NCBI GenBank assembly: GCA_020055645.1 | Contig: CM034550.1 | Coordinates: 14,335,001-14,399,000 of the forward strand | Direction: 5' to 3' | Length of the DNA stretch: 64,000 nucleotides | From: Tomocerus qinae | Taxonomy: Eukaryota; Arthropoda; Collembola; Entomobryomorpha; Tomoceridae | Shown here: positions 361 through 54,600 of the stretch, piece by piece | Position numbering within the stretch: the first letter of the stretch is position 1 | Layout of the letters: each line of letters begins with the position of its first letter | Program-made: the position numbers and the translations under genes | Notes under the pieces: generated by a model | Database searches by the model: none | What the model was told of the DNA's origin: nothing | What the model saw: the letters and a program-made list of their open reading frames with translations, nothing else

Positions 361-3300
361 CATATCGCCTATCTGAATACCATAACGGTAAATACATTTC
401 CAATTAATACCAAACACATGAAACATTAGATAGAAAAAATGAATATCCCAAATATTTAACTCATGATTTGATTTAGTTCTGCTTCTGGAGGCGGGAGGTG
501 AACCCCATCCTTTTGAGGCTAGTTCCTTGAGAGAATTATATCAATTTTATGGATTCACCGATGTGATATTCGATGAATATTCTTAGTAGGGTTAAATAAT
601 AATTTTTTGTTTACAATATCACAGGCTATTCCAGGCTTTTCACTTTTCCTACTTAACAATGACCATATTGACTGGCGACATAGAACAATTCGGCAGAAAC
701 GATCTTGTTTCGCTTGTGTCAAAGGGGTATACTCAAAAAAATCTTTTTGCAATTTTTTTTTCTATTATGCAATGGGATGCAAATTAGTTTTAATTTTTGT
801 TTTACAGCAATCAGCTTGGAGTCAAGGGTTAAACCTTGGAGGAACTAGTAACTTAAATTGTAAGATCAATAAAATAGCTTTCGTGAAAGATTGACAAAGA
901 TAAACAAGAATTTTGAACAATAATTTTTCTACGTTTAGTTCTGGTACATTTACGTGGTCATCCAAAGGATTATGACCACTGGGCAAAAATAACGGGTGAT
1001 CCTACTTGGAGTTATCAAGGAGTGTTGCCATTTTTCAAAGTATCTGAAGATTTTATTGGTGGATCTACTGATGGTACTTAAAATTAATTACCCTGTGTTT
1101 TAAGTAACTATTAAAATTCCACGTAGATGTGGAGCATTATTTTCGATTGCTTAACATGAATTTGAATTTTTTTCAGAACATGCACATGGTAAAGGAGGAC
1201 CATTAACAATTGAGCTTCCCGATCCTCAGGGACTGACCCAGGAATTTCTTTGGGCTGCTCAAGACTTTGGTTATCAGAATGTAGACCTGAATGGGGAATA
1301 TAAAGAAGGTATATTTTGTTGAATTTTAATTATAATATTTTCTACATAGACAATTGGAGTACTTAACAATAACTGCATGGTCTTATAGGATTTGATGCTG
1401 TATATCATCCAATTCGAAGGGGAGTTCGACAGGCAACTTACCGTTCATTTATTCAGCCAGCAAGAAAAAGGAAGACACTCACAATTAGAAAATTTGCACA
1501 TGTTAACAAAATTCTTTTGCGAGGTAACGATAATGGTGCATACGGAGTGGAGTATGATCGTCATTCTAAAAGGCAAGTGGCTTATGCCACAAAAGAAGTT
1601 ATCTTGTCTGCTGGAGGTGAAAATTAAAACAATATTTAAAAACATACATACTGCGTATTTTGTAGAAAAATACACAATTTTAAGTTCTAAGACTATTAGG
1701 ATTTGATTTTAAGTTTTTCTGATTTTGTTTTGCTTTAGCTGTGAATTCGCCAAAAATTCTGATGCTTTCTGGCATAGGACCTTGGCAGCATTTGAATGAC
1801 ATCGGGGTGATTAAAATACAACTTCATGCATTGAAAAAAAAGTTCAAACTGCTATCTGTTAAAGTTCTAAAACAGAAAAATCATTATGAATAAATTATGT
1901 TCGGGAGGTTTCAGTATTATTAAAATTTATATTTTTATTCGTTTCGATAGATTACGCCAAAAGTGGATTTGCCAGTTGGACAGAATTTACAAGACCATTT
2001 GTCAACAATAGTAGGACCATTTTTCATTGACAAACCACGTTCATTTCTTCTAGATCGAGATGTCACTGCCAAAACGTTTCTGCAATGGGGAACTCACGGT
2101 TCTGGAATTTTGACTTCCTCAGGGATAACGGTAAAAAATAAAATATACTTAAATGTTTACACTCTACATTTAAAAAATGCTTTTAAAAAGCATTAAATTT
2201 GATATGATGTACGTTAATAGGCTACGGGATTGTTTGCGTCGACAATTGCGCAAGATTCCGGAGAAGCTTACTATCCTGATATACAATTGTCCCTCTTGGG
2301 AATGGGCGTTCATAAAACATTTGCTTCCGATTTTGCAAATGCATTTGGAATAAGAGAAGACATCTTAAAGAAATACTATTGGCACGCTACGGGAAAAGAA
2401 TCCTTTCAAATAATAGCATCAAATGCCCGTCCCGTTGCTCGAGGAGAGATTCGTTTGTCAAGTAGAGATCCTTACGATCCACAAATAATTGATCCAAACT
2501 ACTTAGATGACCCTTGGGAAGCTGATATCAAAGTTATGATAGAAGCATTTAAAACTGCAATTGCTCTGGTCGAAAATAGCACCAGTTTCCAAAATCTTGG
2601 AGGAAGACTCACGGATGTTCCTTTTCCCGGCTGTGATCACCATTGGTATAGATCTGATGCATATATCGAATGTTTTATCAGGTGAGTTTGCTAATTACCT
2701 TCGAATATAAACAAAAATAGGTTCTGCGGAATTTTTAATAATTTTTTCTATTTTCAGACAATATTCTGTATCTTTGAGAGATATAACTTCTACTTGTGCG
2801 ATGGGGAAAGTCCTGGATTCTCAATTGCGCGTGAAAGGAACGAAATCATTAAGAGTAATTGATGCATCGAGTTTTCCTCAAATTACCGTCGGTGGAAGTC
2901 AAGCTCCTACAATAATGATTGCTGAAAAAGGAGCGCATATGATTTTGGATTATTGGAAATCACAAGGAATAATTGATAATTTCAAGCATGAACATTATTC
3001 TGGATTTGCCAATTCTCAACGGGGAAAAGTTGAAACTCCTGCTCCTGATGATCCATTCGGGAATCCTTTTGGCATCCCCAGTGGAGATATGCCATCTTTA
3101 AACAGTTTGGATTTAGGATTGTCGGTATCCCCAATAAAAAATCCATTCGAAGGACTTTTAACAGCTTTTACTCAAAATTATAATATCGAACCTACAAAAA
3201 ATCCAATTGAAGAATTTTTCAGTGGTTTATTCCCCAAAAATCCCGCTCAGGATGGAGAAGAGGAGGAAGAAAAGCAGCACGCAGAAAATGCAGGTCTATA

Positions 3301-4225
3301 CGGAGTCAATTTGAATTCGGAAGATGCGAAAAATACTTATGGACAAGAAGGGAATCAAAATGACGATGATCCTCCTAAATTCTTTCCACCTCCGATCGTG
3401 AATCATTCTTTAACAAGTGATAATTCACAATTGAAAGAAGTTTCGAAATCCTACCAACCTATTTCTATTTCTGTAGAAAAGGCAAATTTAGTGGATATGA
3501 TTCAATACATAAATGGGCAAACTCACCATCAATATTCACAGAATCAAAATACAAAAGAAATTATTCTACCAGAAAATCAAAAACGAATTAAAGTTAATGT
3601 GGCTAGTCGTTTGAACAACATTATTAATAAAAGAGAACATTTGCACAAAACCCAAGACGTTCGAGTACAAAATCATCCTACGCGTCCTTCTAACAGTAGG
3701 AGTCAAAATACCCAATCAACAAAACCTAGGAGGAAGATAAACAAGTCTGAAAAAGGCAGAAAATTGCCTGCAAATAGTTCTAGACCTAAAAATAATATTG
3801 CAGAGATCATTTCATCTTCTGTAAAATCTCAAATTACCACAAGACCAGTTAACCAAATAACTGCAAATGACTTTTCTCTGCCTGATGAAGCAGATGTATT
3901 AAATTTTCAAAGTCAGAAGCTACATGTGGTAAATCCTGGTCCTGTAAAATTACACACTGAGTCTGGATATTACCGACCGTATCAAGCAATTGAAAATCCC
4001 AACATTGGAATACCAACTACTAGAAAACCATTGTCTGTTAATCGAAATTCTAATAGATACAGAACCTCCCAAATTCCTCAAGTCAGAGGTCCACAGGTGG
4101 AATACGTTTCTAGTACTTTCAATAATCCTGGTGGAGAGGACTACTTTGGACAAGGGAGCAGTATTAAGATAACTAAAATTCCAGTCTCATCACAATTCTC
4201 ATATCAACAAGCACAATCTTCGTGA
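361..4225 (+). CDS. G1: GMC-family FAD oxidoreductase-like protein with low-complexity tail (5' partial)
   Basis: Exons: 361-387, 477-517, 625-726, 808-859, 939-1073, 1177-1308, 1389-1616, 1739-1806, 1951-2130, 2221-2681, 2758-4225; about 964 aa are visible. GMC landmarks in order are LLLEAGGEPHPF, the RGHPKDYDHWAKITGD block, KEVILSAG, the GMC signature 2 region (SPKILMLSGIG), DLPVGQNLQDH, GRP-like ARPVARGEIRL, IIDPNYL and EKGAHMILDYW. Members of this family oxidise alcohols or sugars with FAD, using a His and an Asn/His. Here the His position of the HPxGT motif is Asp (SLRDITSTCAMG) and the later Asn is Gly (VGGSQAPT), so catalysis is doubtful. After the GMC domain comes a tail of about 420 aa rich in N, S, P and Q, opening with HEHYSGFANS (shared with G5) and holding two NP(F/I)E-type motifs (shared with G2). 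The FAD GxGxxG exon is not in the window. An AATAAA lies at 4568. Confidence 0.85.
518..624 (+). other. GC-AG intron in G1
   Basis: The exon ends ...HPFE and continues AIPGF, which needs a GC donor (gag|gctagt) and a normal AG acceptor. G4 has a phase-0 intron at exactly this place (NPLQ|AIPG), which supports the non-GT donor. Reading on into the intron meets a stop within about 20 codons. Confidence 0.6.
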
Positions 4226-7150: not shown

Positions 7151-10100
7151 ATGACGTTTTCATTTGTTCCAGACTTACAAGGAGTTCGTGCACTCCTCCA
7201 GAGAGTTTTTATTGTGCCAATTATATATCTACTCTTCTCTGCTATGCCAATCTTCCTTGGAGTATGGGAAACTGGAGATCGCATCTCAGACAGAGCTACT
7301 GATTGTTTTAGGAGTAGAGACAATACTTTCGACTTCATTGTGGGTGAGTAATAAATTTAAAGCTTCAGAAAAAATTTTGTGCCCGTTAATAAAAAAATCG
7401 CAGAAATTTGCAACAAAAATGGTTTATTTTCTAAGGATGTTGAATTTAGTGTTAACGAACTGAAAATTAAGGACAAGGGAATATTATGCCATAAAGAATC
7501 TTTAAAGAAAATCTATTTTTCTTATAGTACCTAAAATGTCCAATATTTCTCACATACTTTGATAAATATGTATCAAGAATTCCTATGTCATTGTACAAGT
7601 ACAAGTTATTACCTAAGTTTGTATTGTAATATACGCGCAATTAGTATCAATAACACTAATTACAAAACTTTCAAGTATAAAGATAAGCATTAATGTGATA
7701 ATGATCCTTTTTCCGTTTGAACTACTGAAAACAATTGCAGTCTGTAATTTAAATATGAATCTGAAAGTGAGACTTGCGTGTATTTACAGTATAATGCCTC
7801 CAATGCATGCTACCTTTGCAACAAGTTGATAATTTGCTAGGGCTTAAACGAAAATTGTCATGCTTTAACAATTTATCAAGTTTATGACTAACTTACTTAC
7901 ATTCTTTGTAACAGCGACGCTGTAATACAAGTTCAGTTATGCTTGGACAGATCTATTTAGTCTTTTGTGCTTGTTAAGGTAGTTATTCCCACATGCAATA
8001 ATTTTATTTGGTTGAATTAGATTATTTTGGATAAGATTTATACAGATGCCCTTACCTTTTTATTCTGAGTTATCTAAAATACTCGATTTAGTGCATTGTA
8101 GGTGACGTTCCTGTAAAAATCTCTTAAGTAGCTATTATGACCCTTTGAAAGATATTAACATTTATGGATTAAATATAATTTTTTACACAATATTTAGTCG
8201 GAAGTGGGTCAGCAGGAGCAGTAGTTGCCAACAGGTATGAATTCCCAATTATAATATTATCTAACATATTTTTAATGGAAGTTTATTACAATCACATCTT
8301 TAATTCACAGATTGTCCAAACATTTTTCGGTTCTGTTGTTAGAAGCCGGAGGTAAGAAAAAATATGAATGCTATTTTTTGCAAAATTGTTTTTGAATGTT
8401 TTTAATAAATTTTTTATTTAAAGGTGAGCCCCACCCTCTACAAAATATTCCTGGGATTGCTCTGCATTTAATAAGCCATCCACAAACTGATTGGATGTAA
8501 GTGTATTTAAATACTTGAAGATTATTGTACTTCTATCTGCATAATACACTGTGACAAATAATGAAAAGTATATTTTCCGATTTTTAGGTATCGTAGTGTA
8601 CCACAACGAAAATCATGTTTGAACTCCGTCAATCAAGTATGATCTTAGCTTGTAGAGAATTTATCTAAATAATGTAATTTATCACTAGATTCAATAAATA
8701 TTTGGGGAATATTTAGCAATCGAGTTGGTCAGCTGGGAAAACTTTAGGTGGAACTGGTTCTCTAAACTTTATGATGCATCTAAGAGGACATTTCCGAGAT
8801 TTTGACAATTGGGCTAGAATTAGTAAATAATCTTCAATTTCTTTTCGAATAATTTATTCTCAACATGTAATTAATATTGGCATAAGTTATTGCACTAAAA
8901 TCTATCTTTACAATCATTTGTCTCATCTCACCGTAGCTGGCGACAACAGTTGGGGTTATAACAATGTTGTACCGTTTTTTAAGAGACATGAAGATTTCAT
9001 TGGACCGACTACAGACCGTAAAGTTCTTTTACACTTTCTTACATACAAAAATCATCCATTTTTTCTACTGCCATTACCATTTGAGACAGTCAAGAATGTT
9101 ATAGTAAATTTTTGTTAATATTGTGTTTAATATTATGCGAAAATTTTGCCATTTTACAACATTTAGCTTCAGCTAAAGGTTCTGGTGGAGATTTACGTGT
9201 TGAAGTATGTACCCATTTTAATTTTGAGTTTCTTTATTTTATAGTAATTTTTAGTAATAATTATGTTATTGTTTTGATCCCAAGTACCCAGACTATAAAG
9301 GAATGGCACAACATTGGCTGAAAGCTGGAGAAGAATTAAACTATCCAAGTGTTGATTTTAACGGAAGATTTTTGGAAGGTATTTACGAAAATTTCCCAAC
9401 TATGAGTTATTTGAGAACTCAAACGAGCTGCAATAATTAATTAACATCTGTTGCACAGGTTTTGCTGTAAATCAATATGCAATCATGCAAGGGGTTCGGC
9501 AAGCCCCATATAGAGCTTTTATCCAACCAATTAGAAGAAGATCAAATTTGACCATAAGAAAATTTGCTACTGTTAATCGGGTAAAAATGTTTTATCAACT
9601 TGTAATAATAATTGTTTGACTTTACCAAAGACATTTACGACCTGTAATTTTGAATTAGATTATATTTCGGGATATGAGCAACTCGGCCTACGGAGTAGAG
9701 TTTGAACGTCACGGTAAAACCAAAGTCGCAATTGCAACTAAAGAAGTTATAATTTCCGCGGGTACAATTGGTTCACCAAAATTACTAATGCTTTCTGGAA
9801 TAGGCCCAAGACAACATCTGCAAGGTTAAAAGGAATTTCCAATGATTATGTAAATCATCTGTTTGTAATATCAACATTAATTTACACGGATATGTTTTAT
9901 TTTTCAGAACTGGGGGTTTGCGACCGAAATTCTTATCAATCTGTTCTTTAGAACAAATATTTTATTGTACACCACTAAATATGATTTCTGGAAGTGAATA
10001 TTAATTTCTTTTCATAGATCCCATTAAGAGTCGATTTGCCAGTAGGTCACAATCTTCAGGACCATTTGACAACTTACCTCCCTTTTAAAGTGAATTCTCC

Positions 10101-12993
10101 CAACTCATTTTACATGGATCGAGATATGACACCAACTGCTTTGGTGAAATGGGTTCTAAATGGTGAAATCATTTCTGTTCTTAGATCTAAGCAAACGATA
10201 TTTCTAGATCAATAATTTAGTCTATTTTGATTTAAAGTAATTATGTTTTTAAAAATCAGTAGGATAATAATAATAATATTTAATTTGTAGGAGGAGGACC
10301 TTTATCCAGTGCAGGTTCACAAGCAAGTGCTCTAGTTTCATCATCATATGCAAAATCTAGAGGGGAAGGGGACTGGCCCGATATTATGTTGACACTTTAT
10401 GGATACGGAGGGGAACGAACATTCGGTCAGGATATGGCACAAGCTTACAATTTACAAGAAGATCAAATGAAACAATATTACGAGCCGTTTGTGGGCCAAG
10501 ATTCTTTCCACGTTGGCGTCACAGCAGCTCGCCCTGTGTCAAAAGGAGAACTGACTCTTTCTTCCAGGAATCCAAGAGAAGTCCCGATAATTGACCCGAA
10601 GTATTTGGAAGATCATGAAGATTTAGATTTCAAAGTAATGGTTGAAGGAGTCAAATTAGCAATGCATGTTGTAGAAAATACTACGGCATTCCAGAAATTA
10701 GGAGCAACATTTACAACTGCTAAACTTCCAGGATGCGAAAATTTCATTATGAGATCAGATGAATATTGGAAATGTTACATTGTAAGCAGATAGCACTTCT
10801 TCATGATGGTATTTGGAAAAGCACAATTTTTAAATATGACTTTTTATTATTTACAAATTTTTAGCGACGATTTTCAGTGTCTAATTTTGGAGCATCAGGA
10901 ACAGTTGCAATGGGACCTGTAGACTCTTTAAATTCAGTTGTTGATCCTGAACTACGGGTTATTAACACCAAAGGATTGCGTGTAATAGATTCCTCGTAAG
11001 TATTTTACATTCAGTTTGCCCGAAAAAATCTTCATCCTAATAAAACTCTGAAATTTTGTTTTCCAGAGTAATGCCAACAGGTGTATCAACAAATTTACAA
11101 GCATCTACAATGATGATCGGTGAAAAAGGAGCTGATATGATTTTAAAAGACTGGGGAATCCGAGAGGGAAGTACTGGAAATGGTCCACCGAAGAATAATC
11201 CATTTGAAATGATTTTCGGTGGCAATGGAAAGAGTTTGTTTGAAAATTTTCTAGGGATAGCTGGAGGAAAAAATGGAAATCCACTAGAAAGTTTATTTCA
11301 AATGAAGGGAAACAAAAACTTTAAGAGAGACAGCAATCGACAAGAAAATATCACGGATGTTAGTAAAGTAGCAAATGTGCCAAAAGCTTTTGACTCAAAT
11401 GAAAGTAATACTGCTAATACAATTCCCAATCCTTTGGACAATTTGATAAACGTTATTGCCAGAGGCTCCAGTAGAAGTCAAAGTGCTAATAGTCCAGAAA
11501 AACGTAATGAATTGGATCCTGTTCAGCAAGAAATTGAAACCCCAAATGAAAATCCTCCTAATTTGTTCGCGAATATATTTAGTGGATCGTCTGGAGAGAA
11601 TAATGCAAATAATGGTAACCCAAATCCATTTGCAAATATATTTGGCGCTCCAAATGCAAATAATGGAAACCAAAATATTTTCACAAATCTTTTCGGAATT
11701 GCAAAAAACAATGACAAACCAATTTCCAATGCTGTTGACGATTCTAGCAAAAATAGCAAAAATACAGAGCAGAATCCTTTCGCAAATATATTTGGAGGTT
11801 CGCAACAAAGTGACAATAACAAAAATAACGATATTTTTGGAAATATATTTGGAACTAGCAGGCAATTAACTACAAATAATAATAACAATAAAAATCCATT
11901 TGAAGTTATCTTTGGAAGAAATCCCACTGCTACTGCAAGTAATAATGACAATCAAAATAATGTTTTCGGAATATTTTCGGTAAATAACAAAAATCCACAG
12001 AAAAATGTTTTAGAATCTATTTTCACACCTTCCACTGAAAGACCGAAAAATATTTTGGAAACTATTTTTTCTCCTAAAACCGAACGACCGAAAAATATTC
12101 TGGAAACTATTTTCTCACCAACAACCGAACGACCGAAAAATATTCTAGAAACTATTTTCTCACCGCCTACGCAGAAACCAAAGAATATTCTAGAGAGTAT
12201 TTTTGCTCCACCACCAAATAATAATCAAAACAATATTTTCGCAAATATTTTTACTCCCACGACAGAAAAACCTAAAAATATCCTGGAAGATATTTTTGCT
12301 CCACAACAAAGCAATAATCAGAATAACAATCTGTTCGGGAATATTTTTACGCCCACAACTGAGAAGCCTAAGAATATTTTTGAAAACATTTTTGCTCCAC
12401 AGCCCAAAAATAACCAAAACAATCTTTTCGGAAATATTTTTAATAATAATAATAATAACAATAACAATCAGCCGAAAAATATTTTTGGTTCGATATTTGG
12501 AGGAACTCAGCAAGCTCAAAGCAGCCCTCCTCAGAACAATTTATTTGGAAATCTTTTTGGAAATAATAATAACAATAATAACAATAACAATAAAAACCCT
12601 TTTGCATTTCTGTTTGGAAATGGCAGAAGCAACGTGCAGAAAAATCCTTTTGATGTACTTTTTGAAGAAGAAAAGAAACCGGCAAACGCTTTGGAAACTT
12701 TAATAGAGAGAATAACCGGAAATACAAATGAAAATAGAAGTCCCAATTTGTTCGATGTATTATTTGGCCGAACTTCGGGAACTACCAGTGCTTTTGATAT
12801 TCTTTTCGGGCGAAAATCCTTTTTCCAAGGTTTTCTCAAAGGTCTATTCAACAATAATAACAATCACAATAATGATTTAAACAATAACATAATTCCAATG
12901 AGGTCTTTGATGCCAAAAAATCCATTAGAAGGTCTTTTCGGTGCAAATAAAAATAATTCTGGGCTCAATGTATTTGAAATATTTGGAAAATAG
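7151..12993 (+). CDS. G2: GMC oxidoreductase-like protein with Asn-rich NIFG-repeat tail
   Basis: Exons: 7151-7343, 8198-8234, 8311-8351, 8424-8496, 8588-8636, 8717-8822, 8937-9017, 9167-9204, 9285-9378, 9459-9580, 9659-9824, 9908-9915 (8 nt), 10018-10162, 10291-10781, 10865-10995, 11067-12993; 1233 aa. The first ATG in good context encodes a basic, then hydrophobic leader (about residues 15-40) ending in VWETGDR, followed by DFIVVGSGSAG, the FAD dinucleotide-binding motif. The GMC domain runs to about residue 625. The first catalytic residue, normally His, is Gly557 (NFGASGTVAMG); the second, Asn601, is kept (STNLQAST). The tail of about 610 aa is built from short hydrophobic motifs such as NPFANIFG and PKNILETIF, separated by Asn/Gln runs. 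It is probably secreted or membrane-anchored and probably not a working oxidoreductase. ATTAAA at 13095 is a possible poly(A) signal. Confidence 0.88.
11190..12990 (+). repeat. Coding repeat array in the G2 tail
   Basis: The frame holds repeated units of two kinds. About 12001-12420 encodes near-identical blocks of 15-17 residues (PKNILETIFSP plus T/E/R/K). Flanking blocks read NPFANIFGG, NLFGNIF or NPFDVLF with (N)n spacers, encoded by AAT/AAC runs at about 12440-12470 and 12560-12595. The pattern resembles sticker-and-spacer low-complexity proteins. The unit at 12368-12468 is the source of the inverted copy inside G3. Confidence 0.85.
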
Positions 12994-15113: not shown

Positions 15114-18100
15114 ATGGTTTTCATACTCAAAAAACACATTTTTAGATCGTTAGCTACTACTTTTCAAAAAACAGTTTTTCTTCCTTTTCTCTATTGGACA
15201 TTTTCAGCGTTGGGAGTAATCCTGTCTGTTTGGCAAACTGGAGATATTCATTTGAATTCGAAATTAAATTTTAAGGATTCGCAAGACGTCTTTGATTTCA
15301 TCGTTGGTCAGTTTGACACAAAATTCCCTTTTACAAATTATCTTAAAACTTTAATCCAAAATGTCATTGCAAAAAATGGTTAATTGTTTAAAGCCAATAC
15401 TTTGTATTCCTATTCTAAATTAAATAATCTGTATTGGTTAATTAGGTGCTTTTTTTCAGCAAAATATGTTTTAAATCGAATTTAATCATTTATTATTGTT
15501 ACCCAAAATTAATTTCTATTTTTCATAATCGAAAAATAATAATCAAAAAATTATTCAAAAAGAGATTAGCTTAAGTTTATGCTTATGTTTAGGCTCTGAC
15601 ATTAAATAATCATATTTTATTTATTTCTTACAGTTGGAGCAGGGTAAGTTGGATCAAGCAATTCAGGATAACATAATGTGAACCAAAGCAATGAAAAATA
15701 TATTTATTACAGATCTGCCGGCTCTGTTGTTGCAAACAGATTATCTGTTCATTATGATGTTCTTTTACTAGAAGCAGGAGGTAAGTCACTTACAATATTC
15801 CATTAATCTAACTTCATCCACAGAAAAGCACGCAATATATTTACTTTTCTCTTTTAGGTGAACCAAATCCTTTGCAAAAGTAAGTTTGCATAAATTCTAG
15901 AGTAAAAATAGAATATTAAATACTTATAAAAATAATTATTTGTGTATAAAATCTGTACTAAATTCTTTTATTTTATTTTTGTAGCATTCCTGGGTAAGTG
16001 GATAATAAAATTAGTTTCTTATAACATAAATCCCATATTTACGTATGCTTTATTTATGTATAGATTCTCAGTGTTTCTTCAAAATTGGCCTGAACTAGGT
16101 AATAAATAATTTTATCAAATGCGCTTTACACACGAGAGTGACAGTGATCATCAATATCAAATAGATAGATATCCCAAGCTTTTAAAATGCTTCTCAAACT
16201 CCAGCATGCTCAAATAAATAATGTTTCGAATAAGATTTTAACGAATAGACGGATTTAGATGCATTTCAAAAGTTTTAAGCTATCTATCCATTCAGTGTTG
16301 ATTATCATTATAATTTGTGTTTCTTCAAAATAATTATACCAAAATTGTAGCACATAAATATTACAATTTAATAATTTAACTTATTCTTAGACTACCGATG
16401 GAGATCAGTGCCACAAAAATTTGCAAGCCTGAACTCTGTTAATCAAGTTTGTACAATATTCCCAGTTTTATACATATTTTTACAAGCAATATTTTTATAT
16501 AAATATTATATTGACATTTGTGACAATTTTCGAATTCAGCAAGCAAGTTTGTCTGCAGGACGAGGTTTAGGTGAGATTTAGTTTTCAAGACATGAAATTC
16601 TAAAAGAAATGGTTTAGTATTTTGAATGTTATATTTTGTGTATTCAGGTGGTACAGGTACAGAGAGATTTACTGAAGTTGCTGGAATTATTACTTGAATT
16701 ACTCTGAACATCTTTTTATGGACTCGACTCAATGACGAGAAAACAGACGCAAACTTTATTTACAATGGACATGGACAATCGCAATAGAAATAGAACAACC
16801 GCACATAGACTATAAATATAATGTACCTTACTTACTTACAACGAACACCAAAAAACTAGTTTGGGGCGTCTGAAGACACATACACTACTTAGCTTACATA
16901 TTCAATGCATAATATTTAAGACTATGACTTACTTATTTACTATTATTATTACTTCGTCGATGTTATACATTATTATTCTATAATTTACGGACAAATATTT
17001 TTTCCAGGGTTAAAAAACCCAAAGTCAACAATTTATGTTCTAAGACTGTAAACTATAATTATACAGATAATTATTATCATTCTGTTATGGTTATGTATAA
17101 GATCATTAAGACTGACTTAAGAAATAATGGACAATTTTGCTAATAATGGCAATGACATCTTCGATTTGGACACCGAAGTTTTTGGACGACCGGAATGAGA
17201 AATTCCAAGACTAAAAATTGGACAATTTACTTTTATTTATCATATTTTTAAAAGCATAATGTCACTTTAAGGAAAAACGTTTCTAATTCATTTATTTTCA
17301 TGTTACAATAGGAAACTTGAATGCAATGATATACCTCAAAGGTATAGTATAATCTGCTATTTACTTTTGTTACAATCTGTTTGCACATTTTCGTAATATT
17401 TCCTGCGAATTTAATTTACAGGAAATCCTAAGGATTGGGATAATTATGCGGAAATCACCGGGGATCCAACTTGGAGGTAAAATTTTTCATTTTAATTGGT
17501 GCACAAATTTTCCTAATATTTCTTGTTCTTTTCTTAACAAATTTTTATACATTTCAGTTACGAAGGTGTGACACCCTATTATAACAACATGGAGTCATAT
17601 TCAGATCCCAAAGGACATAGTAAGACATTTCTGTATAATTTTACGCATTTTTGGTTTTCCAAGTACTAATTTGGTAATTTAATTTTACTTGTAGAAAGAT
17701 ACCACGGATTTCATGGGGACATGAGTGGTAAGAAATCTTGTGTAGACATACAAATACATGCCATTAATTTGAAATACTGCAAATAATTCAAACTAATTAA
17801 CTGAGTAACGATTTTCTATTTTCAGTTGAATTGCCCGAGTACCAAGGACTGTCAAGTACTTTACACATTTAAATATCAACACTACAAATTAATTACTTTT
17901 TATATTTTAAACTAAGATCTGGCTACAATAGATCTTTTGTTTTTAAAGGCCACTGGTTATTAGCTGGGCAAGAATTCGGTTATCCAGAAATTGATCCTAA
18001 CGCTCCACATACGGAAGGATTCTTCAAAGTATTCCAGACATCCAAAAATGGTCTCAGACACTCGTAAGTCACTAAAAATGACGTTGTGGTGGATTAGTAC

Positions 18101-20885
18101 TAAAATTAGCCTTATTATAAAATGACAATTATTTTTTAGATCATATCGAGCATTTCTTCAACCGATTCGTCTAAGGCATTCCCTTACAATCAGAAAATTT
18201 GCTCATGTAAATAAGGTATGTTTTTCAACCAAATAAATCCATATCTGAAATATTTTAAATAAAAAATATTGTGTATCTCATGAAAATCAGTTAACGTTAC
18301 TGAAGTTTATTATGCTCTACATTTATAGATTTTGTTCGACCAGCATGACCCAGGAAAAGTAATTGGAGTAGAGTACGACCGAAATGGTGTAAAAAGAAGA
18401 GCAATTGCAAAAAAAGAAGTTATCATTTCTGCAGGAGGTAGCTCTCTAATGTCTAAAATTTTAATACTGAAAAATTCGGATGATTTATGATTGATTTGTT
18501 TTTCAGCTATCAAAACACCTCAACTTCTCATGTTATCAGGCATAGGACCAAGAAAATTGCTAGAGAAGCTACACGTAAGTATAATAAATTACTTATATAT
18601 GAATTTATTCTCATTCTTCAATATTACTTTAATAAATATGGATATTATTTGATTTTAGATACCAATTAAGCACGACTTACCTGTTGGAAAACATTTGCAA
18701 GATCATATGTAATTTTTCATGATAAATTTATTGTTATAGTGCACTTATTTTAATTGTGTTTTTCTAATTTTATGTTTCTTTTGCAGTGCCGTCAATTTAG
18801 GACCTTTTTTTACTCGAAAGCCTGCTTCAATATTATTAGACAGGGATGTAACTGTACCTAGTTTGGTTAACTGGTTTGTTATTGTTATTGTCATTATTGT
18901 TATTAAAAATATTTCCGAAAAGATTGTTTTGGTTATTTTTTGGCTGTGGAGCAAAAATATTTTCAAAAATATTCTTAGGTTTGCTACTGGTGGAGATGTA
19001 ATGGGTTCCTCCGGAGTCCTTGCATCAGCTGTTTTCAGTTCTTCGTATGCCAAAGCTAGAGGTATTTTAATAAATTGGGTTGTTTTGAATTTACAAAATG
19101 TATTCAGCTGTATAGCTCTTAAATGTTTCTTTTAGGTGAAATTGGATGGCCCGACATTCAGCTATTTTTACACGGGTACTCCGTATGGAAATCATACCCA
19201 GAAACTATTTCTAGAGCGTATGGTTTGAAATTGGATGAAATGAAGAGATATTACGGACATGCAATTGGGAAAGATGTACTTAAAACTTATCCAAATCATT
19301 TGAAAATGAAATGCTATTGATTTTCGGGAGCAATAATTTTCTTCGTGTTTTTTCTTAGTCTTTTCATATAATGGTTTCGGCTGCACGACCTTATGCTCGA
19401 GGGATAATAGAACTATCCAGTTCCAGCCCTTACGACAGTCCCGTAATTGATCCTAATTATCTAAGCGACAAAGGTGATATTGATATCAAAGTCCTCTTGG
19501 ATGGAATTAAAGCTGCCTTGCAGCTAGCTGAAAATACAACTACATTTGAAGAGTTTGGAGCACGATTCACTGAAATGAAACTACCTGGATGTGAGCATAT
19601 GCCTTTTCGTTCTGAAGAATACTGGGTACTTTCATTTTTACACATCTTAATTATCAAACCAACTATTGGAAAATCGTGACCTGTGTTTTTACGTATAATT
19701 AATAGGTGTGCTATGCCAGACGCTTTTCAGTGACATTGAGACGTAATAAAATATATGAAAATTTAAACTATTCTTGTGAATTATTCTTTGGTTAATCAAT
19801 GGTTTTATGTGATACTTACCAAGTTGATTTCAAAAATTTAATTAAATCCTTAATTATGTTAGATCCTTGTGGAACAGCGAGCATGGGCAAAAAATCTTCG
19901 CCGCACGCTGTAGTGGATTCTGAATTGAAAGTCATCGGAGTTTCTAATCTCCGGGTAGATAACATTCACATATTTTACGTTTTATAGCTTCTTTTTGTGT
20001 TGTTTCTTATTGTGCTGACTTAATTTTCTTGTCTATCTTACAGGTTATGGATGCATCGTAAGAATTTCAGATATGCCAAAAATTTGTCCAAACTTAGCAT
20101 AAAATAATTTTTATATATTTGTGATTTAATTGCCCTATTTCAGCATATTGCCAGTTATAACAACAACAAATTTGCAAGCGCCTGCTATGGTAGTTGGAAA
20201 CAAAGGAGCTGACATGGTTTTACGACACTGGACAGATATTGATAGACACTTAGCAGCAGAACGGGAATATCTTAATAGAAAACTGAGAGAGGAGAGACAA
20301 CGCATCCAAGAACAGCAAAACTCACAACTGATGGATTATATTTTCGAACCACTAAATAATAAAGTTCCACAAATTCAAGGTCCTGGCCATTCTATTAGTT
20401 GGGAGTTTAAATTGCCAAATCTTCATTTGCCTAAAATACCAAAGATTCCCTTGTTGGCAGTGCAAAAAGTCCAAGTGCCCATAGTACATAATGATCCTAA
20501 TTTATCAATGTCAAATCACATGCTATCAGCGCCCAACCTTCCTTTGTTACCTTCTGAACAAAATCACCAATCTTCTATGCATGGTTTTCACGTGACTTCT
20601 CCGCCTCTTCAGAAATCTCCAAAATTAGCAGCAGTAAAAAAGAATAATCCATTGCCCTCAAAAAGTCCTCCGCTTTCTTCTGCAAAAAATCAAGCTTTGC
20701 CAAACGGATTTCACCATCCTTTCTCCCCTCCACCTCCACCAAAACCGTCTTCATCTCCGATAAAACTTATACTGAAGAAGAAGAAAACATTCCAAACATC
20801 TCCAACTAAAATTGAATGCATTGAAGACGATTTTGAATGTTGGTCTTCAAAATTTCCACCTTCTTTTCCTAAAGTTCAGTTCTAA
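15114..20885 (+). CDS. G3: GMC FAD oxidoreductase, active-site residues intact, with Pro-rich tail
   Basis: Exons: 15114-15306, 15634-15643, 15713-15780, 15859-15880, 15985-15993, 16064-16098, 16391-16446, 16540-16570, 16648-16656, 17312-17341, 17422-17476, 17558-17619, 17695-17727, 17826-17855, 17949-18063, 18140-18215, 18329-18437, 18507-18574, 18659-18708, 18787-18873, 18979-19061, 19136-19275, 19359-19625, 19706-19742, 19863-19954, 20044-20057, 20144-20885; 840 aa. The leader (FLPFLYWTFSALGVILSVW) is followed by FIVVGAGSAG. The catalytic His559 is assembled across an intron (c|at), giving LRHPCGTASMG, and Asn603 is present in TTTNLQAP, so it is likely an active oxidase or dehydrogenase of unknown substrate. 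The tail of about 215 aa starts with a charged helix (DRHLAAEREYLNRKLREER), then Pro-rich stretches and a lysine patch. If the segment 18874-18978 is retained, 35 residues are added in frame. A possible poly(A) signal is at 21270. Confidence 0.87.
16673..17224 (-). mobile_element. Probable solo LTR in a G3 intron
   Basis: The 552-bp insert begins TG and ends CA, and is flanked on both sides by the same 6 bp, ATTTAC (16667-16672 and 17225-17230), as expected for a target-site duplication. Read on the minus strand it starts TGTCC and has a TATA-like box, then AATAAA, then a GT-rich stretch, the order expected for U3-R-U5 of a long terminal repeat. Removing it leaves an intron of about 97 bp, the size of its neighbours. 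No internal retroviral genes are present and I cannot assign a family. A non-autonomous DNA element is less likely, given the TG...CA ends. Confidence 0.6.
18874..18978 (+). other. Antisense copy of G2 tail DNA forming a putative new intron in G3
   Basis: From about 18905 to 18978 the sequence matches the reverse complement of G2 12368-12441 with about two mismatches in 75 bp. The remainder matches the adjoining AAT/AAC run with slippage. The segment splits the conserved codons for NW|FATGG, whose paralogues are continuous here. The 5-bp GTTTG at 18874-18878 recurs at 18979-18983. The segment starts GT and ends AG, and removing it restores NWFATGG. It is 105 nt with no in-frame stop, so retention is also possible. 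Confidence 0.85.
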
Positions 20886-33302: not shown

Positions 33303-36868
<3,566 letters not shown>

Positions 36869-40728: not shown

Positions 40729-41615
40729 CAATATTTTCTGTGACAAATGTTTTTCAGATGCTTTGCAATATTTGGTATGAAAACAGCAATTAATTGGTTT
40801 TTCGAAGATGATAAGCAATGTTTTGAGAAAAAATGGCAAATATTTTCCTAAGATTTTGCACAATATTTTGTATGAAAGTAGGAAATTTTTAAGGAATATT
40901 TGAGTATTTTGTGAAAAAATGGCAAATGTTCACGAAAGGTATGGCACAATATTTTGTGACAGCACTGGAAATGTTTTTGGAAAATGCCGCACAATATTTT
41001 GTATGAAAATAGGAAATGTATTAGGAATATTTATCATTTTGTGAAAAAATGGTAATTTTTCACGAAACATATGGCACAATATTTTGTGGGAATATGGCAA
41101 TTGTTTTCGGAAGATGTTAGGTTATGTTTTGTGAAAAATGATAAATGTTTTCGGAAGATTTTGCACAATATTTTGTATGAAAATAGGAAATGTTTTAGGA
41201 GTATTTAATATTTTGTTAAAAAATGGTAATTTTTCACGAAACATATGGAACAATATTTTGTGGGAATATGGCAATTGTTTTCTTTTGCGCAATATTTTGT
41301 GTGAAAATAGGATGTTTTAGGAATATTTTGCAATATTTTGTGAAAAATTGGCAAATGTTCTCACATGATATGGCGCAATATTTTGGGTGAAAATGGCAAA
41401 TGTTTTCGGAAGATGTTACACAATATTTTGTGTGAAAATGGCAAATGTTTTCGGAAGATGTTACACAATATTTTGTGTGAAAATGGCAAATGTTTTCGGA
41501 AGATGTTACACAATATTTTGTGTGAAAATGGCAAAGTTTTCGGAAGATGTTACACAATATTTTATGTGAAAATGGCAAATAAACATCTTCTGAAGATGTT
41601 GCACAATAATTCATC
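40729..41615. repeat. 45-bp minisatellite with higher-order structure
   Basis: The core unit (CAATATTTTGTGTGAAAATG, then GCAAATGTTTTCGGAAGATG, then TTACA) repeats every 45 bp at 41376, 41421, 41466, 41511 and 41555. To the left, older copies recur at spacings near 45, 86 and 89 bp, and a block of about 174 bp (starting near 40992 and 41166) is itself duplicated. Because 45 is a multiple of three, several frames stay open by chance. Confidence 0.9.
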
Positions 41616-42646: not shown

Positions 42647-45600
42647 ATGGGAGTAGTGTCTAATTTTCGACTAAGGTTTCGAAACCTGTTCTTCACGCCG
42701 ATTTTATACGGATCTATTGCTTCGTTAGCACTCTTCCTTTCAGCTTGGGAAACTGGGGATAGAGTTCGTGATCGTTTTCAAGATCGATTTAGGAGCAAAG
42801 AAGATACTTTTGATTTCATCGTTGGTATGTCACTTAGTTTATTTTCTTTTTCTAATTATTTTCACAATTCTTTATTTTCAAGTATTAATTTCTGTTTACT
42901 TTTTAACTTTACAGTTGGAGCGGGGTAGGTTTTCAATATTTGCATAACACTACATAGAAATTCTTTGACCAAAATCTCAGCATTAACATAATTTTAGTCA
43001 AAAAGTAAAATTTTGAATATTCCCTTGCGACTAATCTTCATTGATTTTTTTTATTTTGTCGAATTTCGTCTATTAGATCTGCAGGTTCAATTGTTGCAAA
43101 CAGATTATCCGAAAACTTTGATGTACTACTTTTAGAAGGTGAAGATTATTTTTAAAACTATGCAAAGGGTTTGGTTTGAATTATTTGTCATGAATTCCAT
43201 AGATTGTAATTTTGGTGGAAATATATATTTAAAATTAATATTTAAAATAGATGTTTATGGAAGCCAATATTTCAATTGAATATTTAAAATACATTTTTAT
43301 GGAAATAAATATTTCAATTGAATATTTAAAATAGATTATATATCATTTTTTATTTATTCCAAAAGCTGGAGGGGAGGCTCATCCTTTTTCTGCCGTTCCT
43401 GGACTTTCACGATTTCTCATGAACTACCCACAAGTTGATTGGGGTTATAGGTGAGATATTTCAGCCAGAAATCCAATTGTCTGCATATAATTCACGAAAC
43501 AACACTTTGTTTTCACTACTAGATTACTAGAAAATATTTCATTTACTTATAGCATGTACTTTAGATTTTCACCTAAGACTAAAATTATAATGTTTTAGGA
43601 CCACACAGCAAAAGAGATCATGTCTTCTTTCAAATAACAAGGTAACGAAATAATATTTATTACATTAGTAGTAAATATTAGAATCTTCTTTTGTCTAATA
43701 TGAAAATTATAACTTTTAGGAATGCAGCTGGTCTGGTGGCAAAGGTAATTTTGTTACTCCTAATGTACTGCCAAGGGACAGAGCATTTTCTATTTTTGTA
43801 GTTTATGGAAAACCATTAGAAATGCATGAAAATATTTGACACATCTACAATCAAGAAGATTCTTAGGTTTATTTTATGTTTTGTAATATAGGTCTTGGTG
43901 GAAGTGGAAATTTGGGGCAAATGACTTACCTGAGGGGAAATCCAAAAGATTATGACAATTGGGGACGAATTACAGGAGATAGTCGCTGGAATTATGAAGA
44001 AATCCTTCCTTACTTCAAGAAAATAGAAGATTTTATCGGGAACTCGACAGATCGTAAGTAATTCACAGTTCTGAGGCCAAATTTATTTTACCTGTACTAA
44101 TCCAGATTATTTAAGTTCATTTGGTTGATATTTAACTTTCAGCGGATGCCCATGGACATGGAGGAGAACTTAGGGTAAATTATTACCTATTTTTGTCAGT
44201 CAATTAACAATTTACATCAATGATTGTATATCATATTCTGTATTTTCCATTACAGGTAGAACTTCCTGACTATATTAATCCTACTAAAGGTAACAAGATA
44301 GATCTTTTATTGTCTTGTCTAAATATTAGGAACTTTTGATCACATTAATGTGCGAATATGTTATTTTAGAATTTCTATGGGCTGCCCACGAGTTAGGATA
44401 CGACAATGTTGACTTGAATGGTCACTACACGGAAGGATTTGATGCAATGTACTACTCCATTAAAAAAGGTGTGCGTCAGTCTCCCTATAGGGCTTTTATT
44501 AAGCCCATTCGGAAGAGAAAAACTCTGACGATAAGAAAATTCGCCCATGTTACAAAAGTAAGAAATCATTTTAACTCATATGAATATTTTATAAAACATT
44601 AGACGAAATACATCAACTAGAACAAATTTGGAGATTTTGAATCTACTCAATTGTTGATTTAATTGATTTATATGATTGCTTGTTATTTCAGTTAATGCTG
44701 CGGAATAATGACAATGGTGCTTACGGTTTGGAGTATCAGAAACATGGAAAACTTCATAAAGCCTATGCACATAAAGAAATTGTTCTATCCGCTGGGGCAA
44801 TACAAACACCAAGAATACTGCTGCTCAGTGGAATTGGCGATGAAAAGCATCTTAAAGACATGGGGGTAATAATAAATAATAATTTACAATTAAAGAAATG
44901 TGCAAATTCCAAAATTTTGAGATTTTATTAACTTCCTATTTGATCACACAGATAAAATGTCGCTTCGACAGTCCTGGAGTTGGTCAAAATCTACAGGATC
45001 ACGTAAAACCTTAAAGAATACATTTAACCTACAGTTTCTATTGAATACAGAAAATAATTTCCTTTAATGAATTTCTTGTATGGTTTTTATAGTTGACGAC
45101 ATATGTGGGTCCATTCTTTATAAATGAAGCGAAGACATTGCTACTAGATCGTGATATTTCAACTTTATCTTTTCTGGAGTACGGAGCATTTGGAAAAGGT
45201 CCTTTGACAACAAGTGGGGAAATGGCTGCAGGAATAATTACCTCAACACAGTCAAAAAATCGTGGAGAGGGAGATTGGCCTGATATGAAAATAAGGTAAA
45301 TTTTCATAAATTTGAAATCTCTTTAGAAGTAAAATATAAAAGGATATTGTTTCTTTAGCCTGCACGGGGTGGCTGTGTACAAAAATTTTGCTGCAGATAT
45401 GGCCCATGGCTATAATTTGAAAAGGGATACTATCGCTGAATATTACAAACATGCCATTGGTCAAGAATCATTTCATATGGGAATATCAGTTGGAAGACCC
45501 CTTGCACGTGGAGAAATACGACTTACAGGGAAAAATCCTTTAACCGATGACATTGTCATCGATCCTAATTATTTAGAAGACCCTTGGGATTTAGACTTGA

Positions 45601-47115
45601 AAGTAATGATGGAAGGAGTGAAAATGGCATTGTTTATGGTAGAAAATACAACAGTCTATCAAAATCTTGGTGGTAGATTTACAAATGAAGTTCTTCCAGG
45701 ATGCGAGCATGTCAAATTTAGATCCGACGCGTACTGGGAATGTAAGAATTCATTTAATATTGCTTAAAAATAGAAATTAATTTGTACTAATTAATTTGAC
45801 TATTGCAATAGGTTACATCAGAAAATTTGCTATCTCATCCAATGACTATGTCGGAACTTGTGCAATGGTGAGATAAAATTTTAGATGTTAAAATAGCTTT
45901 CTATTTACATAGATTTAATTTTTTGGTGAATTACATAGGGACAACGTGGTAAACGAACAGCAGTTGTTGATCCTGAACTTCGGGTCATTGGAGCTAACAA
46001 TTTAAGGGTAAATACAATGTTAAATAATTTTACTGGATAATTGAAACTCAACAAAATTCAACTCTGTTAATATTGGAACATTTTGTTTGAATTTCAGGTT
46101 ATTGATGCATCGTAAGTTAACTCTAACATTTATTTGGTCATTATTTATTTTTTGTGTTTTAACTGAAATTTTAACGTGAATCTTTTTCAGTGTTATTCCA
46201 AGCATAGTAGTAGGTAATGCAGAAGCTTCTGTTTTGATGCTGGCACAAAAGGGAGCTGATATGATGGTTAATTATTGGAAAAGTCAAGAGCCTGAAGATT
46301 GTCACGAGCATTATTCCGGTTTTGCAAATTCAAATCGGCCTGGAAAAACAAAAGATAAGGCAAAAGAGACAGAAAATCATCTCGATGAAGAAGAATTGAT
46401 TGTCCAGAGTCCCCAGCGTAATAAACAAGAAAGTTTTCCTTTGGAAAATCAAGATTTGAGTGAAATTTCTGAATATATTCACAATATCCACCCTTCATCA
46501 ATTTCATCTTCCTTGAAATCTTCCGAAGAAGAGGAATCCCAAACTCAAAACAGATTAAGACCTGTAAATCTTGCTTCTGTTTTAAGCAAACGGATGAAAT
46601 CTTCAAAAAATCGGAAAACATTGAACAAATTGAAGTCTCAAACTTATGAAAATCAACCTTCAGTAATTATAGATATTCCACAAAATGTCCACGCAGTGTA
46701 TCCAACTCTGTCTATTTCACCAAAGTACCATTTAACTAGAGCAATTTCTTCCCCTGAATTTTCCTATGTGGATGATTCTGTAAAGGAAAAGATTTACGAT
46801 GACTCTGTGTACGTTGTGAAAACCAAAGTTGATAAAAATAGACACAAACCTTTCCAGGATACTGATTCTGATTATAGTGAGCAAAGACCTATGATTATTA
46901 TCAAAAAGAAATCCGATCAATTCAGTCCAAAAGCAAAAGAAATTCCCAAAATCGAAAATGACAATTCTGGAGGAAATGGCCACATTTATTTACCAACGTA
47001 CGAGGTTAGTAACTCAGAAGGTACAATTCCTCTAGAAAATCCATTGTCATCTCTGACAACGGAAGTTCAACGGCGTTATAATTCGCCAGTTCAAACAGAT
47101 GATTTTAGTTTTTAA
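42647..47115 (+). CDS. G5: GMC oxidoreductase-like protein with charged low-complexity tail
   Basis: Exons: 42647-42824, 42915-42924, 43077-43138, 43366-43450, 43599-43641, 43720-43744, 43892-44053, 44143-44174, 44256-44289, 44370-44557, 44692-44865, 44952-45002, 45093-45295, 45359-45741, 45812-45867, 45939-46007, 46098-46111, 46191-47115; 897 aa. The first in-frame ATG starts MGVVSNFRLRFRN, then a hydrophobic run (FFTPILYGSIASLALFLSAW) and ETGDRVRDRF, then FIVVGAGSAG. The GMC domain is complete, but the His of HPxGT is Asp555 (SSNDYVGTCAMG). The Asn is kept (Asn599, VGNAEAS). The tail of about 275 aa opens with HEHYSGFANS, as in G1, and is rich in S, E, K and P. Catalytic activity is doubtful. 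Poly(A) signal at 47397. Confidence 0.88.
43237..43336. repeat. 42-bp tandem duplication in a G5 intron
   Basis: Two 42-bp copies (43237-43278 and 43279-43320), plus a 16-bp start of a third, lie within the intron before the exon at 43366. The copies differ at several sites, so the duplication is not very recent. Confidence 0.85.
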
Positions 47116-51624: not shown

Positions 51625-54600
51625 ATGAAGAAAGTTTTCTCAAAGCTTCGCTACCAATTCAAATCAGGACTCAGACATGGTTTCAAAAATGTGATATTTT
51701 CTAAATTCTTCTTTGGGTTTGTGGCTTCCTTGTCTATGATTATTTCTTCGTATGATAAGGCAGATAGAGTGAAAGATAGTTTGAATGCAAGGTTTCATGA
51801 CCAGGAGGATACCTTCGACTTTATTATTGGTAAGTACATCATCTATTTCAAATATGACACAACATGCAACAGAAAATCTAATTTCATCTCAGAGTTGGCT
51901 CAAAGCCTAATATTTTTAAGTTTTCCGCACGAATTTTAATCTAATTGGGAATAACAGATCTCTATGCGCCAAAATTCTCTTTTATTTAGTAAAATTGAAT
52001 AGAAAAGTAGTTTTAAAATATCAGTGCTTAATTTTTAATCACTTTTCTACATTTCAGTTTCAGTAGAAATTAATTCGCATTTTCTCAGCGAAGAAAAAAG
52101 AAAACCAAGGTATTAAAATGAGTGCTGAGTGTACGTGTTTTAATCATGCACTTAAGCATGTAAATAATATGTAGTTATATAGGAAAAGTTCTATTTTATG
52201 GTGACACGTAGGATATTATGTAGACATACAGGTAGGTACAATAGTCGGAGCGACAAACATCATAGGAAGCGCCAATAGAACATAAATACTGAAAATTACA
52301 CTTTGAGTGTAGAAAAGTTGCACACACGTCTGTAAATGGTTAAAGAATGTATAGAATCAAAGAGGAGTACGCAAATGATAAAATGTAGCGTATAGGAAAT
52401 CCTGTGCTGGTTAAAGACGTCCGGTGTGAATAAAATTGTCTCTTAGAATCTTACTTTTAATTGTATTCAACAGGTAGAGTGTCTCAACACTGCTCTGTAA
52501 CCTTTTACTTGAATTGCAATTCAATGCTAGTGACTCCACGTTGAAAAGTTTCATAAAAGTTTGAAATTTGCCTTCACTATCACTAACATTTATGACAGGA
52601 CAGTATAGAATGGAAATAAATAAGGCAATTACTCACTCCATAGAGGAATCCTTAGTAGAATACCTACCGTGTGACATTCACTAGTAGTTATATACTACAA
52701 AGACTAACCTACTGTTTACTATGCTTCATAATTTAATCCATCATTACATTTACTGTCACTGATAATGTTATTTTCTTCAGAGTTTTACTATACTAACAAT
52801 GAGCTAAATTGATCTAAATATCTTTACCTTAATGCGTATAGACAAATATATAGTGCGTGTAGAACAAATCGCTCCATCAACACGAAATGCATACATAGTG
52901 TCAAGAAATGAGGTTTCTAGTTAACTAACTCTTTAATTGCCTAGCCTTTAAATCAGAAGTAGACTGCATAACAGATTATATTCGGCATTCTTATGTATAT
53001 TTCCTAGCGTGTATCTTCAATTAAGTTCCGGTAGAACTAATTAAACTAATAAGCTTACACAAAAAGAGGAACTTGGTACATATTTGCTCATAAATTCGTC
53101 ACAGCTGAATGACATTCATCAAATTGGAGACTAATAGTTCCTCCAGTCGCACAATAATTGTAAGAAAAGGGCAATTTCTGCCTCGGAATTGACGAGAATG
53201 ATTTCTTATGACAATTACAGTTGGTGCAGGAACGGCGGGTTGTCTTTTAGCAAATCGCCTATCAGAGAACCATAAAGGTGAGTTAATTAGATGCACTAAC
53301 TAATTAGCGTGAAATTAGTTTACTCTTGCTTTTAACAGATTTTAAATTATGTATTAGATTAAAATTCCTTTCCATTTTCGGTTTTAGTATTACTATTAGA
53401 GGCAGGAGGAGAGCCCCATCCTCTCCAGCGGATTCCTGGACTAGCATTTTTTATGGTCAATTATAAAGAGGTAAAAACTAAAACAAAACTAAATTGAATG
53501 AATATACAATTGTATAACACAAGGAATACATTCTCATTTATTTTAACACAGACCGATTACAGCCATCGAACTGTTCCACAAAGACGCGCTTGTTTTGCTT
53601 GCGTAAATAAGGTAAAACAGTATACCAAGTTATCTAGTAAGATATAAATACAAATTATAATCAAGCATCTATTTGTTAGACAATGTGTAACAGATTACCC
53701 AAACATTTAGAATCTAATGTTTATTATAATACTTTGTAATCTTAAACAAAATCTTTCGGCAAACGGCAGTTATGTAAACTGTCTCATTAATAGACGAACA
53801 AAATAATTTACATGATTGTATATGTACATATTGAAAATGTTTAACATATTTAAATGCATTGTGGCCTCAAATCTTATTGTTAATAAGTTAATGTGGAATA
53901 ATCAGCCAGTTAATTGTACATTATGATTTTTTACATACAGAGAGCTGGTATATCGCAAGGGAGGAATTTGGGTGGCAGCAGTAAGTAAAAATATATCTTT
54001 TACTATTGGATAAAATTTTCTTGAAATAGATATAATTATTGCTACGATTTGTATTAGGTAACATAAATTGGCAAGTTTTTTTACGGGGAAGCCCACGGGA
54101 TTACAATAATTGGGCTCAGATCACAGGCGATCATTCATGGAGCTATCAGGAAATGCTTCCTTACTTCAAAAGAAGTGAAAATTATCAAGGAGAGACTCCA
54201 GATCGTAAGTAACATGCTTTTACGTTATTAGGAATGATACGTCAAGAAAAATTATTTGTAATTTATCTGATTTAATATATTGAATAGAAATATTAGATGT
54301 TTCCACTGAATTTAGGAGTTAAATTACAAGTTAATTCAAATTAAAGCTTTCTGAATCGGTTTAAAATTCTTGGACTGTTTTTTAACAGGGGATGCTCATG
54401 GTTTTGAAGGAGAATTGATGATCGATCCCCCTGCTTACACTGGTATGGCAAAAGAATTTATCAGAGCAGGTCAAGAATTAGGGTACGAACATGTGGATTT
54501 GAACGCTCGTTACGAAGAAGGTATGTCTGTGCTAGAAAAAGCATTTGTTTGGTAGTTAATTATTGAGAAGAATGGCAAAAGAAGAATTTGTGTTTGTTTT

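Follow-up and report, generated by a model that had tools for sequence, protein, structure and literature searches.

The 105-bp segment that interrupts a conserved exon of the GMC-oxidoreductase gene G3 is probably a young and real spliceosomal intron, which, judged from its sequence, would have arisen by templated insertion from the antisense strand of the coding tail of a neighbouring paralogue, G2. We regard the antisense-G2 origin of the insert as almost certain, a grade that is a matter of judgement and not of computation.

Gene cluster and gene models

The window, that is, the whole 64-kb stretch of DNA that was analysed, contains five GMC-oxidoreductase genes, all on the + strand. The gene models were built by hand from paralogue homology and GT/GC-AG boundaries, and the exon boundaries were picked to restore homology between paralogues.

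362-4225, + strand: G1, GMC oxidoreductase, hand-made model, truncated at the window start
7151..12993, + strand: G2, GMC oxidoreductase with an Asn-rich repeat tail, 16 exons, hand-made model
15114..20885, + strand: G3, GMC oxidoreductase, 27 exons, 840 aa, hand-made model
42647-47115, + strand: G4, GMC oxidoreductase, hand-made model
51625-63577, + strand: G5, GMC oxidoreductase, hand-made model

The G3 model is an intact 840-aa ORF without stop or frameshift, in which all 27 modelled exons are in frame and all 26 introns are GT-AG, and a domain search of the spliced product found both GMC_oxred_N and GMC_oxred_C. The reading of G3 as plainly broken was rejected, as a 30-nt exon at 17312-17341 closes the apparent gap between GGTG and GNPKDW and the model reads through. 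Among the best 120 of 7306 protein matches, the closest were springtail proteins (Folsomia candida, 55% identity; Orchesella, 54-55%), the named non-springtail matches reached 34-41% identity, and none was near-identical. On these matches the host is most likely a springtail.

The insert and its source

The features of the insert, which lies in a conserved G3 exon coding for LVNW/FATGG, and of its source are as follows.

18874..18978, + strand: candidate new intron of G3, 105 bp, phase 2, GTTTGT...TTCTTAG
18876..18979, - strand: stretch copied from G2, corresponding to 12364-12467 in reverse complement and overlapping the right repeat copy with its last bases
12364..12467, + strand: source, coding repeat and Asn tract in the C-terminal tail of G2 (KPKNIFENIFAPQPKNNQNNLFGNIFNNNNN...)
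18787..18873, + strand: G3 exon upstream of the insert, hand-made model
18979..19061, + strand: G3 exon downstream of the insert, hand-made model

The window was compared with itself using blastn (word size 11, low-complexity filter on). The best match of the insert was 12467-12364 in reverse orientation, with an E value of 1.4e-41 and 94% identity over 103 columns including the Asn tract, which bore out the coordinates, strand and G2-tail source given for 18874..18978 in the preliminary description. The source had been placed at 12368-12468; its identification as the coding repeat of the G2 tail stood, but its limits were moved to 12364-12467. Outside the Asn tract there were 2 mismatches in 77 bp, and the earlier figure of about 97% identity over the non-repetitive part was thereby reproduced. 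One mismatch and a 3-bp indel were found inside the tract, and one further base differed in the overlap of target and source at the right junction, giving four mismatches and a 3-bp indel overall. The source is 6.4 kb from the insert, in inverted orientation. All inverted self-matches of the window at E<=1e-8 pair the insert with the G2 tail (four distinct pairs). The relation between insert and source is correct and not a product of chance.

Two other routes to a new intron did not agree with this source. Tandem genomic duplication would have left a direct duplicate of adjacent exon sequence, whereas the insert is inverted relative to a source 6.4 kb away. Transfer of an intron between paralogues did not apply, because the source is an exon and none of the four other paralogues in the window carries an intron at the position, as had been described earlier.

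Direction and age of the copy

Three differences between the insert and G2 outside the tract, AAG/AAA (Lys), AAC/AAT (Asn) and CCC/CCA (Pro), are synonymous in G2. At all three sites the base of the insert is shared by the sister repeats at 12175 and 12268, which suggests that the insert keeps the older state of the G2 repeat and that G2 has changed silently since; outside the tract, no change was attributable to the insert side. The right repeat copy covers the AAG/AAA site, whose base could therefore stem from the target; the other two sites carry no such ambiguity. Copying from G3 to G2 was rejected, because the source belongs to a tandem array as one of its units, and the bases of the insert are found in the sister units. 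These comparisons of sequence indicate that the copy went from G2 to G3, and recently, and they support the earlier proposal of an antisense-paralogue origin together with its direction of copying.

Junctions and route of insertion

The insert is flanked by a direct repeat.

18873..18878, + strand: left copy of GGTTTG, which supplies the donor GT
18978..18983, + strand: right copy of GGTTTG, whose first G completes the acceptor AG

The repeat had been reported as the 5-bp GTTTG; it is present, but is 6 bp long. In a null of mispaired donors and acceptors, runs of at least 6 bp occurred in 1.3% and runs of at least 5 bp in 3.5%. Runs of at least 5 bp were observed at 3 of the 35 gene-specific introns, G3 18874-18978 included, and at 0 of the 43 shared introns. 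On these counts, direct repeats were rejected as strong stand-alone evidence. In Drosophila, parts of PMC3296678 report repeats of at least 5 bp at 26 of 100 conserved introns versus 19 of 77 gained ones; direct repeats alone are therefore weak evidence, because the conserved introns described there carry them as often as the gained ones.

At the left junction TTG is common to target and source. At the right junction they share GG; the shared stretch would be GGTTT had the source read AAACC at the time, an earlier state suggested by the Lys-Pro codons of the sister units. The 6-bp target duplication and the microhomology fit a staggered break patched from a nearby template. The same junctions fit as well a template switch during replication, in which the fork moved to the inverted repeat and returned a few bases upstream. 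Of the proposed repair of staggered breaks of the Daphnia type, therefore, the 6-bp repeat fits, but the junction microhomology fits replication template switching equally. There is also a resemblance between the insert's Asn tract and 12567-12599 (91% over 33 nt), and the template may thus have been switched a second time within the G2 tail. The favoured origin is templated break repair or template switching.

Along such a route, the conserved G3 exon would have suffered a break, or a fork would have stalled there, and the repair path that we infer would have taken about 100 bp of the Asn-rich coding tail of G2 as template, inserted the copy in inverted orientation and left the 6-bp GGTTTG repeat behind. 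The donor GT would have come from the target and the acceptor from an antisense Pro-Lys codon pair (CCT AAG, which reversed reads CTTAGG). The antisense of an A-rich coding repeat would be T-rich, GC-poor and intron-like, and the spliceosome would cut out the 105 added bases and no others, though perhaps not in every transcript.

An artefact of assembly or library, in which a chimeric join brought the G2 tail into G3 in inverted orientation, is very unlikely. The segment comes from a single assembly and its inverted source lies 6.4 kb off, as such a join might have it, but four mismatches, a 3-bp indel, a perfect 6-bp repeat and differences that are synonymous in G2 are unlike a read chimera. 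Even less credible is a copy of an Introner (a mobile intron-making element) or of another transposon. The insert has a short flanking repeat, and, as parts of PMC9860276 describe for some Introner families, its 5' splice site comes from the duplicated target and its 3' splice site lies inside the insert. However, it belongs to no repeated family in the window, where no second copy was found outside the G2 tail, and its source lies within a coding tandem repeat array. By inspection, its ends (TTATTG.../...TTCTTA) are not the terminal inverted repeats that some Introner families have.

Splicing signals and composition

The removal of GTTTGT...TTCTTAG restores the reading frame and NWFATGG. The donor GTTTGT also opens a G3 intron at a position that has an intron in all five genes.

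16447..16539, + strand: G3 intron starting with GTTTGT, at a position common to the five paralogues

Splice sites were scored by a leave-one-out procedure, with matrices from the hand-called introns of the five genes, and the scores accordingly rest on hand-made gene models. The donor of the candidate intron ranked 13th lowest, its acceptor 23rd lowest and their sum 15th lowest of 78, that is, modest scores inside the range of the 77 other introns. The GC content of the insert was 23%, in comparison with an intron mean of 24% and an exon mean of 41%.

No YTNAY motif was found in any of the 105 nt, and 2 of the 77 other introns lack one over their whole length. Between -50 and -10 the motif was found in 67 of the 77 other introns, where shuffles of the stretch expect 63.6. 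This is barely above expectation, so the motif is weak evidence in this window, and its absence was rejected as a veto against an intron.

The insert consists of 35 codons, is a multiple of three in length (3n) and is open in the G3 frame. This combination of 3n length and no stop was found in 3 of the 77 other introns and in 0 of the 34 other gene-specific introns. An insert of this kind offers no backstop through NMD, and the frame alone is not proof of an intron, since the segment can be read through. By chance, 526 of 1290 antisense G2-tail pieces (41%) were open in the G3 frame. Parts of PMC2809761 report that new introns of Drosophila are depleted in the 3n stop-free class, and parts of PMC4202315 that no such difference is significant in Daphnia. 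The earlier identification of the insert as an intron thus retains its canonical GT-AG ends and intron-like GC content, but is tempered by modest scores, the missing branch-like motif and the 3n stop-free length.

Simulated insertions

Insertions of 99 bp with a 6-bp duplication were simulated at random exon positions or at the GGTTTG site. At random exon sites, exact GT-AG removal was possible for 1.7-2.0% of the inserts, and exact removal at the observed summed score for 0.09-0.34%. At the GGTTTG site, which carries GGT, the corresponding values were 28-40% and 1.4-5%. The antisense G2 tail performed best at the observed strength, modestly above random window sequence (0.34% vs 0.26%, random sites). 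The earlier statement that exact splicing restores the ancestral NWFATGG is true, and with GT-AG ends, but it carries less weight than was claimed, because 28-40% of inserts allow exact removal at GGTTTG.

Conservation of the insertion site

In none of 124 other proteins (the 4 paralogues and the best 120 of 7306 matches) were residues found between the split codons, which correspond to the W and F columns of the alignment. In the predicted model of the Folsomia homologue (mean pLDDT 89.6), which served in place of a G3 model and was aligned with 30 of the 120 listed homologues, the split codons W383/F384 lie inside helix 377-386, and a 35-aa insert would be predicted to break it. In the alignment, a G2-specific intron, 10163-10290, follows the G3 insertion site at a distance of four columns; the two may be independent gains at nearly one spot, or their proximity may be chance.

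Were the segment retained in the mRNA, G3 would contain a 35-residue, mostly hydrophobic coding insertion (VIVIVIIVIKNISEKIVLVIFWLWSKNIFKNILRF). The 3n length, the open frame (an outcome found in 41% of antisense G2-tail pieces by chance), the missing branch-like motif and the lack of an NMD backstop all suit retention. So does the Folsomia candida protein P0021 (isoform X1 according to its database name), whose annotated coding sequence includes a hydrophobic stretch of 49 residues, a few positions downstream of the site; as P0021 is a predicted model, the stretch may in turn be a segment left unspliced. Against retention are the count of 0/124, the position within a predicted helix, and the rarity at random sites of exact GT-AG removal at the observed strength, and we think it unlikely.

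It is less likely again that the insertion is improperly spliced and untolerated, merely young, in a dying or null G3 allele. With an insertion this recent (97% identity outside the tract), G3 may not yet have started to decay, and it deviates at 4 of 53 residues that are invariant in the 30 homologues, in comparison with 1-2 in the other window paralogues where sequence is present. One of the four is an Asp for glycine five residues downstream of the insertion site. Constraint on G3 may therefore be somewhat relaxed, but its exons are in frame without stops and its introns are GT-AG, although at hand-chosen boundaries.

Splicing of the insert is, in our judgement rather than by computation, quite probable. 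This estimate was reached by weighing the simulation odds against the 41% chance of an open frame and the conserved position.

Complementarity to the G2 transcript

G2 and G3 share the + strand, and about 100 nt of the G3 pre-mRNA are accordingly complementary to the mRNA of G2. The duplex was predicted at -127 kcal/mol, and the best of the 77 other introns (first 200 nt) reached -33. It is speculative, and improbable, that the new intron doubles as a source of antisense RNA or small RNA and acts as a trans regulator of its parent G2; if it did, one mutational step would have created both an intron and a trans regulator between neighbouring paralogues.

Comparison with known intron gains

Introns flanked by repeats and gained through break repair are known in Daphnia (PMC4202315, in part). 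The Daphnia gains (Li et al. 2009), as partly recounted in PMC3443670, PMC4683709 and PMC4202315, are likewise inserts in conserved exons with a short direct repeat at both ends, of 4-12 bp there and here two copies of GGTTTG. They are AT-rich, like the G3 insert, and mostly canonical GT-AG, and the whole insert is usually excised, as is predicted for G3. Their sources are described there as mostly unknown, apart from one mitochondrial 16S, one rRNA gene and three doubtful matches to other organisms, whereas the G3 insert has a recognisable nuclear protein-coding source, antisense and 6.4 kb away.

The nearest published source that we found is that of the new intron 4 of Dictyostelium DDB_G0273471, which derives from the coding 3' end of another gene plus 64 bp of UTR. 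Unlike the G3 insert, this intron has no flanking repeats, and in the parts of PMC4683709 concerned with it, antisense orientation is not stated and the source is not called a neighbouring paralogue. Intron 5 of Drosophila willistoni GK24465, in the partial account of PMC3296678, resembles the G3 insert in that a break-repair segment was matched in reverse complement, but its source is mitochondrial, with an E value of 0.032 against 1.4e-41 for the nuclear coding source in G2.

Human templated sequence insertion polymorphisms, as portions of PMC5110952 describe them, are also short copies of another locus in which the donor stays in place, with target duplication in class 1 and junction microhomology in class 2; in those portions, unlike the G3 insert, they are not presented as introns. 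Class 1 (LINE-mediated) has a target duplication of at least 5 bp, which the 6 bp in G3 reach, but also an added poly(A) tract, which is absent from G3, where both insert ends match source or target directly. Class 2 (break patch) has no target duplication, whereas the G3 insert has the 6-bp repeat.

The source of a new intron identifies its route of origin and, Introners aside (27,563 introns in 175 genomes; PMC9860276, in part), is seldom found. The excerpted reports give a source for 0 of 307 new introns in Drosophila (PMC2809761), 0 of 168 in Caenorhabditis (PMC9169325), 2 of 62 in fission yeasts (PMC3629103), and 2 of 98 in Dictyostelium and 1 of 21 in the first Daphnia set (PMC4683709). 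A literature search, in which few subscription papers were covered, found no report of an intron derived, in antisense, from the coding sequence of a neighbouring paralogue. In G3, the source, the target repeat, the junction microhomology and the copying direction are all legible in one 64-kb window, and the donor can be assigned to the target and the acceptor to the source separately. If spliced, the insert would be a clear case of an intron from protein-coding antisense DNA, and its 3n stop-free length would make it a test of whether new introns need an NMD backstop.

Other introns and features of the window

The five genes have 78 modelled introns, 35 of them at positions seen in one paralogue only; in G3, 15 of the 26 introns are at positions unused by the other window paralogues. 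Intron turnover in the GMC cluster is high, and some single-paralogue positions may represent losses elsewhere. No intron but the candidate 18874-18978 could be traced to a clear source in the window; searching it for sources of the remaining gene-specific introns gave only weak matches at E<=1e-3, involving six introns over 18-48 columns.

The gene-specific 107-bp GC-AG intron 518-624 of G1 is likewise a candidate for a gain with target duplication. It is flanked by the 6-bp repeat AGGCTA (516-521 and 623-628), and its exact removal restores EPHPFE/AIPGF; no source for it was found in the window.

Some further features of the cluster were recorded. Very long, low-complexity Asn-rich C-terminal tails are present on two of the GMC oxidoreductases, at 56499-63577 in G5, whose model has 2907 aa, and at 11067-12993 in G2. 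Between the GMC genes, an ORF stretch at 35134-35511 matched EF_assoc_1 above the Pfam cut-off and EF-hand families below theirs; we take it to be probably an exon of a Miro GTPase. A satellite-like array with nested periods, including 45, 90 and 174 bp, occupies 40799-41580. The G3 intron 16657-17311 is 655 bp long, against a median of 86 bp, and contains short, imperfect internal repeats. The hand-made models of G2, G3 and G4 also imply micro-exons of 8-10 nt, at 9908-9915, 15634-15643, 15985-15993, 16648-16656 and 42915-42924.
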